DNA of 64,000 nt from Candidatus Eisenbacteria bacterium (lineage in GTDB: Bacteria; Desulfobacterota; Binatia; DP-6). Where the stretch lies: positions 1 to 64,000 of the forward strand of contig DATJZY010000129.1 in the NCBI GenBank assembly GCA_035577985.1. Reading direction: 5' to 3'. The position numbers and the translations under genes are program-made. Under the pieces are notes generated by a model, which had not been told where the DNA came from, ran no database searches, and saw only the letters and a list, made by a program, of their open reading frames with translations. This document shows positions 16,819 through 46,970 of this stretch, in pieces. Every line of letters begins with the position of its first letter. The stretch's first letter is position 1.

Positions 16819-17973
16819 GTGGAGCTCCCGCCGCTCGACTTCGACGACGTCCACCGCCGCGTGCTCTCGGAGCGATTGCGCACCGGGATCGGCCGCATGG
16901 CGGCGGCCGACGTCGCCGGCGTGCCCTCGATCGCGCTCCGTCTCGTGGACGGCCGATCGTACCGCTTGACACCGGACGGAGGAGAGATCCGCATCGAAGC
17001 CGGCGACGACGCGACCACGGTCGTCCTGATGGACGAGGACGCCTGGTGCGACTTCGCCCGCGAGCTGGCGACGGCGGCGGGCCTCCTCTACGGCGATCGC
17101 CTGCGCTTCGTCGCCGGCGGATCACCGGACCTGGAGCGCTGGGAGCCTGCGCTGCGCGCGCTCTACAGCGGCCGGTCCATCTTCGATCCGAGACACACGG
17201 TGCTCCGCGGGCGCGACGGCGTGGCGCTCGACCCGAGCCGCAGCTTCGCGCTCGGCGATCCCGACGACGAGCTGCGGGACTTCCTGCACGCGACGGGCTA
17301 CCTCCACGTGCGGAGCGTCTTCACCCGGGACGAGATCGCCCGCCTCGTCGAGGTCGTCGAACGCCACCAGTCGGAGGCGAAGCCCGGTGACGGGCGCTCC
17401 TGGTGGGCGAAGCGGACCGACGGAGCGCAGGTTCTCTGCCGCCTCATCTATCTCGGGCTCGTGTCGCCGGAGATCGCGGCCCTCGCCGACGATCCGCGGC
17501 TGCGTCGCCTGGCCGCGCTCTCCGACACGCCGCTGCGGGCCGTGCACGACCACAGCGACGGCGACTCGGTCGTCATCAAGAACGCGAACGTGTCCGAAGG
17601 CCTCTCGGACCTTCCGTGGCATCGCGACTGCGGCCTCGGGGGGCATCCCGTACGGTGCCCCTCGATCAACCTCGGCGTGCAGCTCGATGCGGCGACGGAA
17701 GCGAGCGGCCGCCTCCATTTCGTTCCAGGGTCGTGGCGGGGATCGTGTCACCGCAGCGACCTCTCGCGTGCCGCGACCGTCGCCGTCGACACGGAGCCCG
17801 GCGACTGCACGCTCCACTTCGGCGACGTGATGCACGCCGCGCCGCCACCTACCGGCACCGGCCCGGGCCGCCGCGCCTTGTACGTGACCTACATGCCCCA
17901 CGAAGCCGACGCGTTCATTCCCGCGGGCAAGAGCTACAACGACGTCATCCTGAAGCGCGTCGGCGGGCTCTAG
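16819..17973 (+). CDS. phytanoyl-CoA dioxygenase (PhyH) family protein
   Basis: A 384-residue protein. The C-terminal half is a Fe(II)/2-oxoglutarate dioxygenase of the PhyH type. The metal triad is visible as His268 and Asp270 in WHRDCG and His339 in FGDVMHAAP. An Arg in GRRALYVTY near 355 would hold 2-oxoglutarate. The N-terminal 120 residues contain a region reminiscent of SCP2-like lipid-binding domains (IRIEAGDDATTVVL through LLYGDRLRF), which is tentative. Such enzymes hydroxylate lipids or small molecules, and some cleave phosphonates or halogenated compounds. The GTG at 16819 lies 2 nt after sugE. The stop is followed after 4 nt by a strong hairpin. Confidence 0.87.
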   Translation: MELPPLDFDDVHRRVLSERLRTGIGRMAAADVAGVPSIALRLVDGRSYRLTPDGGEIRIEAGDDATTVVLMDEDAWCDFARELATAAGLLYGDRLRFVAGGSPDLERWEPALRALYSGRSIFDPRHTVLRGRDGVALDPSRSFALGDPDDELRDFLHATGYLHVRSVFTRDEIARLVEVVERHQSEAKPGDGRSWWAKRTDGAQVLCRLIYLGLVSPEIAALADDPRLRRLAALSDTPLRAVHDHSDGDSVVIKNANVSEGLSDLPWHRDCGLGGHPVRCPSINLGVQLDAATEASGRLHFVPGSWRGSCHRSDLSRAATVAVDTEPGDCTLHFGDVMHAAPPPTGTGPGRRALYVTYMPHEADAFIPAGKSYNDVILKRVGGL

Positions 17974-17977
17974 GAGG

Positions 17978-18004
17978 CCGACCCAAGACTCCGTCTTGGG
18001 TCGG
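17978..18004 (+). terminator. candidate terminator hairpin after the PhyH gene
   Basis: A perfect 12-bp stem, CCGACCCAAGAC with its complement, closes a 3-nt loop, 4 nt after the stop codon. No T-tract follows, so intrinsic termination is uncertain. It could equally block 3' exonucleases or act on the convergent dehydrogenase transcript. Confidence 0.5.
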
Positions 18005-18074
18005 GGTAGGACGCGAGTGTGTCGCGTTCGTGGCACGCGCGACCGGCATGCCGCGGCCAGCCAAGCTGGCGCGG
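17978..18074 (+). repeat. two-hairpin dispersed element, copy A
   Basis: This 97-nt element begins exactly 4 nt after the PhyH stop. Hairpin 1 (17978-18004) has a perfect 12-bp stem with a TCC loop. Hairpin 2 (18051-18074) has CCGC and GCCAGC pairing with GCTGGC and GCGG around a CAA loop, with one bulged G. The same element, the same length and in the same relation to a stop codon, lies on the minus strand at 44928-45024. It looks like a REP-type or mobile 3'-end element and may also end transcription. Confidence 0.8.
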
Positions 18075-18117
18075 GAGACGAAATACGCCCGTTGGGTTGC
18101 GGCGTCACGCCGGCCTC

Positions 18118-19050
18118 CTAGTATCCTGCCGCAACGTCGACGACGCCTTCGAGGGGCTCGCCGGCGAGCATTCGGCGCAGGTTCGCGACGAACTTGCCGA
18201 CCAGGACGTCGCCGCCGCCGGGGCCGTTCCACGACACGTGGGCGGACAGGTGGACGCGGGGATGCGTGTACATCCAATGCCCATCGGGCAGCGGCTCCGG
18301 CTCGACCGCGTCGAGCGACGCCAGCGCCACGCGTTCGTCGTCGAGCGCGCGGCGGAGCGCCTCGTCGTCTACGAGCGGGCCGCGCGCCACGTTCACGAGA
18401 TGGACGCCGGGCTTCACGACGCGCAGCGCTCGCTCGCCGATGATCCCGCGCGTCTCGGCCGTGGCCGGCGTGACCAGCACCAGGTGATCCGCCGTCGCGA
18501 GCAGATCGTCCAGCGTCGGCGCGATCTCGACGCCGTGGATCGGGCTCGGCGCCGCCGTGCGCCGGAAGGCACGCACGCGCATGCCGAACGGCAGCGCGCG
18601 CGCGGCGATCGCGCTGCCGATGCCGCCGATCCCGACCAGCGCGAGCGTCTTCTCGTACAGGCCGCCCATGGTCGGCCGGAAGTTCCACGACGACGGGAAC
18701 GCGCGCAGCCACTCCGCGGGGAGGTTCTTCTCGAACGCGAGCATCTGCGCGAGCACCCACTCGGCGATCGGGATGGCGCTCGCGCCGCGCGAGCAGGTGA
18801 GGAGGCGATCGCCGACGACGTCCAGGGGAAAGCGATCGACGCCGGTGCCGACCGTGTGGATCCATCGCACGCCGGTGGTGGCGAGGACCTCGGCCAGGTT
18901 CGGCGTGCCCCACGGCAGCGTCAGCAGCGCGTCGGCGCGAAGCTGCGGGTCGATCGGATCGGCGGTAGGGATCACGATCGTCTCGACGCCGGGAACGGCC
19001 TCCGCGATCTGCGCCGCGAACGAGTCGCCGAGGTGGACGAGCACCCGCAC
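18118..19050 (-). CDS. D-2-hydroxyacid dehydrogenase (NAD-binding)
   Basis: A 310-residue member of the D-isomer-specific 2-hydroxyacid dehydrogenase family. The Rossmann dinucleotide loop is VGIGGIGSAIAAR near residue 140, the catalytic Arg lies in NVARGPLVDDEAL, the Glu in DAVEPEPLP and the His in SAHVSWN near residue 275. It interconverts a 2-hydroxy and a 2-oxo acid; substrate is not predictable. It lacks the ACT or regulatory domain of SerA. The gene is convergent with the PhyH gene across the repeat element and divergent from moaB, with 47 nt between starts. Confidence 0.9.
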   Translation of the reverse strand: MRVLVHLGDSFAAQIAEAVPGVETIVIPTADPIDPQLRADALLTLPWGTPNLAEVLATTGVRWIHTVGTGVDRFPLDVVGDRLLTCSRGASAIPIAEWVLAQMLAFEKNLPAEWLRAFPSSWNFRPTMGGLYEKTLALVGIGGIGSAIAARALPFGMRVRAFRRTAAPSPIHGVEIAPTLDDLLATADHLVLVTPATAETRGIIGERALRVVKPGVHLVNVARGPLVDDEALRRALDDERVALASLDAVEPEPLPDGHWMYTHPRVHLSAHVSWNGPGGGDVLVGKFVANLRRMLAGEPLEGVVDVAAGY

Positions 19051-19847: not shown

Positions 19848-20282
19848 GTGTTCCGGATCGTGAAGCGACGGATCGACCTCCGGGCGCTCGATGCCGCGGT
19901 CCGCCATCCGCGCGCGGGTGCGATCGTCACGTTCGTCGGGACGACGCGGAGCGAGAACGTCGGCCGTCGGGTCCGGCGGCTCGAGTACGAAGCGTTCGTC
20001 TCGATGGCGACGAAGGAGATGCGCGCGCTCGCCGCCCAGGCGAAGAAGCGCTGGCCGCTGCGCAAGGTGGCGATGGTGCATCGCCTCGGCGTCGTGCCGG
20101 TCGGCGAGGCGAGCGTCGCGATCGCCGTCTCGGCGGGCCATCGCCGCGAGGCGTTCGAGGCGTGCCACTGGCTCATCGACCGCCTGAAGGAGATCGTGCC
20201 CATCTGGAAGAAGGAGCACTATCACGGTGGCGAGGTGTGGATCGGCGTGCAGCAGGGCGGTCCCGCGCCGCGCTCGAGCTAG
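19848..20282 (+). CDS. moaE: molybdopterin synthase catalytic subunit MoaE
   Basis: A 144-residue protein that begins at a GTG 1 nt after moaD. It shows the MoaE motifs GAIVTFVGTTRSEN near residue 25, LEYEAFVSMA near 46, HRLGVVPVGEASVAIAVSAGHRREAF near 80-105, and the catalytic IWKKEHYHGG segment near 123. It converts precursor Z to molybdopterin together with MoaD. Cluster position and motifs make the call secure. It is convergent with ppk2, 18 nt apart. Confidence 0.95.
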   Translation: MFRIVKRRIDLRALDAAVRHPRAGAIVTFVGTTRSENVGRRVRRLEYEAFVSMATKEMRALAAQAKKRWPLRKVAMVHRLGVVPVGEASVAIAVSAGHRREAFEACHWLIDRLKEIVPIWKKEHYHGGEVWIGVQQGGPAPRSS

Positions 20283-20300
20283 TATCCGCAGTCCGAAGAG

Positions 20301-21218
20301 CTAGGCCTCCTTGTCGAGCGCGCGGCGGGCCTCCCGGAGCTGGGCCCGCTGCACGCGGTCGACCTTGGGATAGTGCAGGTCGAGGTCGATTAGCGCATCG
20401 ACGACCGCCGCCGCCACCACCAGACGCGTGAACCACTTGTTGTCGGCCGGGACGACGAACCACGGCGCGTGCGGCGCCGCCGTCGCGCGGATCGCGTCCT
20501 CGTAGGCCTGCATGTAGTCCTTCCAGTACTGGCGCTCGGTGACGTCGGCGGCCGAGAACTTCCAGTTCTTGCGGGGGTACTGGAGCCGTTCGAGGAAGCG
20601 CTTGCGCTGCTCGGCGCGCGAGACGTGCAGGAAGAACTTGAGGATCACCCATCCCTGCCGCGCGAGGTACTGCTCGAAGCCGCGAATGTCCTCGTAGCGC
20701 TCCTCCCAGATGTGCTTGCTCACGAGCTGCGGCGGCAGCTTCTGGCGCGCGAGGATCTCCTTGTGCACGCGCACCACCAGCACCTCCTCGTAGTAGGACC
20801 GGTTGAAGATCCCGATCCGGCCGCGCTCGGGGAGGCACCTGGCCGAGCGCCACATGAAGTCGTGGTCCAGCTCCTCGTTCGACGGTGCTTTGAACGAGTA
20901 GACCTGGCACCCCTGCGGGTTCACGCCCGACATCACGTGCTTGATCGTGCCGTCCTTGCCGGCGGCGTCCATCGCCTGGAAGACCAGCAGCACGCCCCAG
21001 CGATCCTGTGCGTAGAGCATGTCCTGCTGGGTTTTCAGCACCTCGATACCGCGGGCGAGCGTCTCGTTCGCCTTCTTCTTCCCGATGTCGAGGCCGCGCG
21101 TGTCGCCCGGATCGATGTCCTTCAGGCGAAAGTGCTTGCCCTTCGTCACCCGGAACGGCTTCACGAACCGCTCGGCGATCTCACCTGCGCGCCTGACATC
21201 CGGATCCTTCTTCGGCAT
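20301..21218 (-). CDS. ppk2: polyphosphate kinase 2 family protein
   Basis: A 305-residue PPK2. It has the Walker A-like FQAMDAAGKDGT near residue 81, FNRSYYEEVLVVRVH near 140 (Walker B region), WVILKFFLHVSRAEQRKRF near 185 and a C-terminal PWFVVPADNKWFTR. Single-domain PPK2 enzymes phosphorylate NDPs or NMPs with polyphosphate, or make polyphosphate from nucleotides; the class cannot be assigned from motifs alone. Length and motif order are normal. It is convergent with moaE and is followed upstream by the mgtC-like gene on the same strand (43-nt gap). Confidence 0.93.
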   Translation of the reverse strand: MPKKDPDVRRAGEIAERFVKPFRVTKGKHFRLKDIDPGDTRGLDIGKKKANETLARGIEVLKTQQDMLYAQDRWGVLLVFQAMDAAGKDGTIKHVMSGVNPQGCQVYSFKAPSNEELDHDFMWRSARCLPERGRIGIFNRSYYEEVLVVRVHKEILARQKLPPQLVSKHIWEERYEDIRGFEQYLARQGWVILKFFLHVSRAEQRKRFLERLQYPRKNWKFSAADVTERQYWKDYMQAYEDAIRATAAPHAPWFVVPADNKWFTRLVVAAAVVDALIDLDLHYPKVDRVQRAQLREARRALDKEA

Positions 21219-44848: not shown

Positions 44849-44927
44849 GCGATCGGTCGCCGATCGCGCGTCTGAGAGGGGTGGGGCAGGGGCGTGTAGC
44901 GCTAGCGGTCCGCGCGTACCCGGTTTG

Positions 44928-45024
44928 CCGCGCCAGCTTCGCTGGCCGCGGCACCCCGGTCGCGCGTCCACTAACGCTACACTCTCGCCCTCCGACCCCG
45001 ACCCGAGACGGAGTCTCGGGTCGG
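44928..45024 (-). repeat. two-hairpin dispersed element, copy B
   Basis: A 97-nt element on the minus strand, beginning 4 nt after the groEL stop. It repeats the plan of 17978-18074. Hairpin 1 (44998-45024) has a 12-bp perfect stem with the same TCC loop in element orientation, and hairpin 2 (44928-44951) has the CCGC/GCCAGC pairing with a GAA loop and one bulge. Between the hairpins both copies share the block ACGCGCGACCGG. Copy A has A-T where copy B has G-C at stem position 8, a compensated pair. Confidence 0.8.
44998..45024 (-). terminator. candidate terminator hairpin after groEL
   Basis: A perfect 12-bp stem CCGACCCGAGAC with its complement lies 4 nt after the groEL stop on the coding strand. 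No T-tract follows, so it may stabilise the 3' end rather than end transcription. Confidence 0.5.
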
Positions 45025-45028
45025 CGCC

Positions 45029-46970
<1,942 letters not shown>

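Follow-up and report, generated by a model that had tools for sequence, protein, structure and literature searches.

A family of short, very probably mobile hairpin elements that insert at CTAG, and thereby at gene ends, in a Binatia lineage

We propose that a 97-nt two-hairpin block, found just past two stop codons in a 64,000-nt stretch of Candidatus Eisenbacteria DNA (the whole of which we call the window), belongs to what is very probably a family of short, non-autonomous MITE/REP-like mobile elements that insert at CTAG and thereby at gene ends. In the mechanism that we envisage, a transposase acting in trans would cut at CTAG, recognising the subterminal hairpin ends. Insertion into the CTAG of a stop codon doubles that stop, of which each flanking gene retains one, and where two convergent genes overlap at a shared palindromic CTAG, both gain a hairpin about 4 nt past their stop. 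Arms at gene 3′ ends would be kept longer since the hairpin would aid transcription termination or shield the 3′ ends of mRNAs, and one-armed copies, such as the two in the window, would be deletion derivatives.

The 97-nt block of copy A starts 4 nt 3′ of the stop codon of a PhyH gene (PF05721), the TAG at 17971-17973 being followed by GAGG and then by hairpin 1 at 17978-18004. Copy B lies on the minus strand behind groEL (GroEL, PF00118, minus strand), its hairpin 1 (44998-45024) again 4 nt 3′ of the TAG at 45029-45031, and the two copies are 88% identical over 98 nt (BLAST E 2e-27); the first-pass annotation, which had described them as equal-length relatives at identical distances from the stops of unrelated genes, is correct in each of these respects. 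In both copies the 12-bp stem of hairpin 1 is perfect, and nowhere else in the 64-kb window does a perfect stem of 10 bp or more close a loop of 3-8 nt. On the plus strand of copy A, this hairpin, with its 3-nt loop, delimited by the stem scan and by covariation, is followed by a linker (18005-18048) that contains GTGGCACGCGCGACCGGCA, conserved in the alignment, and by hairpin 2 (18049-18075), of the type TGCCGCG-G-CCAGC CAA GCTGG-CGCGGCA with one unpaired G and, in this copy, one mismatch. Hairpin 1, linker and hairpin 2 form one arm only, and copy A runs on to 18121, where it closes with an inverted copy of its own first 11 bp, CTAGGAGGCCG at 17970-17980 being mirrored by CGGCCTCCTAG at 18111-18121. 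Each of these ends joins a CTAG, taken as the duplicated target by the logic of the empty sites described below, to a terminal inverted repeat: on the left CTAG 17970-17973 and GAGGCCG (17974-17980, plus strand; GGAG/GGAGC ends are conserved in relatives), on the right CGGCCTC (18111-18117, minus strand) and CTAG 18118-18121. The left CTAG holds the PhyH stop and the right one the stop (TAG 18120-18118) of a convergent 2-hydroxyacid dehydrogenase gene on the minus strand, which ends at 18118. Between the two CTAGs copy A is a one-armed element of 144 bp (17974-18117), from which the inner right arm is absent, the right repeat being read as the remnant of that deleted arm. Copy B, with hairpin 2 at 44926-44953 (minus strand), probably extends over 44902-45032 (minus strand), from a CTAG at 44902-44905, where we infer its far end to lie, to a CTAC at 45029-45032, which is a drifted minus-strand GTAG.

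The complete unit consists of an arm, a variable centre and an inverted arm, with CTAG at either end, and measures about 240-330 bp (232-409 bp in a related genus), each arm comprising GGAG, hairpin 1, linker and hairpin 2. It is the related genus, in which arms mostly occur as inverted pairs, that identifies the inverted pair as the unit. One form, 295 bp between the outer stems, is present at 21 places with 88-100% identity and with nearly pure CTAG flanks on both sides, starting with GGAGCGCGACCC directly after CTA and finishing with GGGTCGCGCTCC directly before TAG, save for a few damaged ends; these near-identical copies represent a recent spread. Three related genomes (G005, G002 and G006) together contain 148 matches to the end motif TAGGRGSSCGACCCRAGA and 0 to a backwards control, and the end matches there mostly pair into short units. 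The element is not only bounded by terminal inverted repeats but short and free of any transposase gene, its longest open stretch being 98 codons in the 295-bp form. When ends were scanned in the related genus, one in four was without CTAG, through drift, small deletions or a looser choice of target, and reduced forms also occur, such as a 38-bp palindrome of hairpin 1 only at G005:C94:55692-55729.

The expectation that the pair in the window has further relatives was borne out by a genome-wide search with a covariance model for which 53 copies were used. The element's own genome (G000; 5.7 Mb in 191 contigs) gave 145 model matches, part of which are the palindromic hairpin read from the opposite strand, and 79 BLAST matches; after curation the list comprises 114 arms, of which 50 belong to inward-facing pairs and 64 stand alone. 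Since several contigs of this assembly (C107, C37, C102, C120 and C157 among them) end at or near an arm, further copies have probably been lost or collapsed. Model matches numbered 97, 57, 46, 2 and 2 in five genomes of the same family, the first three of which are the other genus; none was found in a sixth genome of the family or in 31 genomes of the same class from other families. The exact core motif was absent from the named genome collection in a search that excluded very near genomes, the element was absent at 20 groEL loci of deltaproteobacteria-like metagenome genomes (best groEL match 80%), and no Rfam family matched at its gathering score.

A search of the relatives with the fused flanks of filled sites recovered five orthologous empty junctions, each lacking an insert and bearing a single CTAG or CTAA in place of the two in the filled genome. 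Three sites with CTAG are filled in G005 and empty in G006, two of them aligning with a gap of at most 3 nt (L202 and L206) and one ungapped near the junction (L309); the two with CTAA, both ungapped near the junction, are filled in G006 and empty in G002 (L199) and filled in G002 and empty in G006 (L192). Because the empty sites carry a single CTAR against two when filled, these junctions show that insertion is precise, with either CTAG or only its inner TA duplicated, a 2-bp (TA) and a 4-bp (CTAG) duplication being inseparable as C and G flank both sides. At four of the five sites (all but L202) reading of the frames suggests that the single CTAR of the empty site is already the stop codon of a flanking gene, so that in these four cases the element appears to have inserted into an existing stop and doubled it rather than having brought the stop with it. 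No clean empty orthologue of copy A or copy B was found in the relatives, where the genes flanking copy A are present but not adjacent. Another G000 copy lies at the rpmB/ridA locus, where other genera are without the element and have intergenic DNA too diverged for a junction to be read.

The placement of the arms follows the same word. In the window, with a GC content of 71%, CTAG occurs 12 times against 169 expected from base composition, a depletion of about 14-fold, and six of these occurrences serve as coding-frame stops, the two ends of copy A among them. Because CTAG is so depleted and half of its occurrences in the window are stops, insertions tend to land at gene ends. Distances between arms and stop codons are accordingly not random: an in-frame stop lies no more than 14 nt upstream of 94 of the 112 testable G000 arms, and at exactly 4 nt in 38, whereas such a stop is found within 24 nt at only 1.7% of random window positions. 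TAG accounts for 70 of those 94 stops as compared with 29 of 92 stops in the window, among which TGA predominates (60 of 92). Some insertions, however, sit at CTAGs that are not stops, which argues that the guide is CTAG rather than the stop itself. The first-pass suggestion of a mobile, REP-like 3′-end element guided by the stop codon is thereby amended, in that the element is multi-copy, mobile and does fall on stops, but is guided by the palindromic CTAG. Insertion at CTAG-containing stops accounts at once for the fixed spacing between stop and hairpin, for the convergent pairs and for the common orientation of copies A and B relative to their genes; the last, although real at both loci, is no separate fact, since a complete element has an inverted arm at both ends, and with the same arm at either end both convergent neighbours see equal orientation and spacing. 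A fixed distance from repeat to stop codon need not, therefore, imply recognition of translation or of RNA. The result would be a transposon that is nearly harmless in a gene-dense genome, its target word having been purged by the host except in stop codons and being duplicated upon insertion, so that the neighbours keep their stops. Mycobacterial MIRUs, a dispersed repeat, insert at the stop-containing word DTGA at gene junctions. The genes that meet there run in the same direction and are translationally coupled, and MIRUs themselves contain small reading frames, whereas the word here is CTAG and typically lies at convergent ends.

The sequences of the arms give some evidence for a role of the hairpins. 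Seven pairs have changed on both sides, with 59 cells showing such double change where shuffling yields 14.7, and 98.8% of cells are paired against 23-39% for slid structures; in older-looking copies the spacing between stop and hairpin has drifted and the stems are intact. As the stems covary and the arms are enriched at stops, it is plausible on these sequence grounds that the hairpin serves as a two-sided mRNA 3′-end structure, although the paired changes could instead come from self-correction of the palindrome rather than from selection on RNA. The element resembles intrinsic terminators in its strong GC-rich hairpin just past the stop, and differs from them in that no U-tract follows the hairpin, in its spread by insertion, and in its conserved linker and second hairpin. 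A rival to such a role, to which we would give slightly less than an even chance, is that the element is purely selfish DNA, its hairpins serving transposition only and its position at stops reflecting the target word together with the removal of insertions within genes. Depletion of CTAG alone predicts insertion beside stops, and the lack of a U-tract fits the same reading. It sits less well with a hairpin-1-only remnant (L359) that is flanked by two convergent stops, a TAA and a TAG, and with the larger share of arms at stops in G000, the older-looking set, than in the younger-looking set of the related genus (94 of 112 against 72 of 109; Fisher p 0.003), a modest signal that is confounded, because the comparison is one between lineages and not of age alone. 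We put forward only tentatively, and with the odds against it, the fuller proposal that the CTAG of convergent stops is a safe harbour where the element deposits a two-sided mRNA 3′-end hairpin, that many gene ends of the lineage owe their terminator or mRNA cap to transposition itself, and that the mobiliser lies outside the RAYT, IS5/IS4 and IS630 groups. Should the hairpins in addition terminate transcripts, many genes of this lineage would owe their 3′ ends to a mobile element.

Two known kinds of element come close to the one described here, and descent from either is possible but doubtful. The first would make it a classic REP/BIME, that is, single-strand units moved by an HUH (Y1/RAYT) transposase, with a CTAG tag replacing the usual GTAG and with head-to-head dimers. 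In GTAG REPs, dimers whose tags face outwards lie close to gene ends, and the tag often supplies a TAG stop; the outer tag followed by a hairpin, head-to-head dimers with conserved spacers and a location between convergent genes have all been reported for them (PMC3733652). Our element shares with these REPs and BIME-like dimers the character of a high-copy extragenic palindrome, the TAG within the outer tag, which often supplies the stop codon, the inverted dimers with tags facing outwards, and the position adjoining gene 3′ ends and between convergent genes. It departs from them in its tag, which is CTAG plus GAG and not GTAG or CGTC, in its two hairpins per arm, in the perfect hairpin 1, and in the empty sites that carry a single CTAR. 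The genus with the youngest copies does have Y1_Tnp genes, but the genome with most copies, G000, has no Y1_Tnp match, and in the relatives neither the element nor tagged hairpins flank any of 21 Y1_Tnp loci, for which reasons RAYT/Y1 was rejected as the mobiliser. Three genomes of the related genus each hold 5-7 Y1/RAYT-like transposase genes (L212-L232), none with REP-like tagged hairpins at its flanks.

An origin as a MITE of an IS5- or IS630-kind DDE insertion sequence favouring CTAG seems to us equally improbable. IS5 duplicates YTAR, mostly CTAG (PMC5493358), and a close parallel is MITEPsy1 of Pseudomonas syringae, an IS5-type MITE whose ends read GGAAGG and whose target duplication is CTAG/YTAA (PMC3189936). 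Insertion of IS630 takes place at the TA within CTAG. As in MITEPsy1, the element is short, has no transposase gene and has inverted ends starting with GGA, and the doubling of CTAG or of its inner TA recalls the 4-bp duplications, CTAG or YTAR-like, of MITEPsy1 and IS5; unlike in these two, the end sequence is another, the hairpins are subterminal and the copies are concentrated at stops. Against this origin, neither the IS4/IS5 transposase domain (DDE_Tnp_1, PF01609) nor that of IS630 (DDE_3, PF13358) has a match in G000 or in G005, the latter with a very uniform copy set, and both were set aside as mobilisers. No long inverted end pair enclosing a gene was seen, and the end-motif matches of G005, G002 and G006, whose assemblies are fragmented, included neither an autonomous copy nor a parent insertion sequence that shares the ends of the element. 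TAG stops supplied by GTAG REPs and the targeting of CTAG by IS5 and MITEPsy1 are thus known already; the present family joins to these traits a CTAG tag and a second hairpin in each arm, and lacks a recognised transposase. A non-mobile family of conserved RNA terminators, arising or copied at gene ends and held there by selection, would fit the enrichment at stops, the covariation and the old copies with drifted spacing yet intact stems, but is very improbable in view of near-identical linkers and centres at unrelated genes, the exact CTAG at both ends, the insertions at CTAGs that are not stops and, above all, the five precise empty sites, which contradict it.

Two further junctions bear on the history of the CTAG-inserting family. 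One convergent junction holds different subfamilies in G005 (L309) and in G002 (L183) and is empty in G006 (L399), which suggests that the same stop-codon target has been used repeatedly. In the window, at 20279-20304, two CTAGs lie 22 bp apart (CTAGTATCCGCAGTCCGAAGAGCTAG), each a stop of one of two convergent genes; this pair could be the footprint of a heavily deleted hairpin element, or could have arisen by chance.
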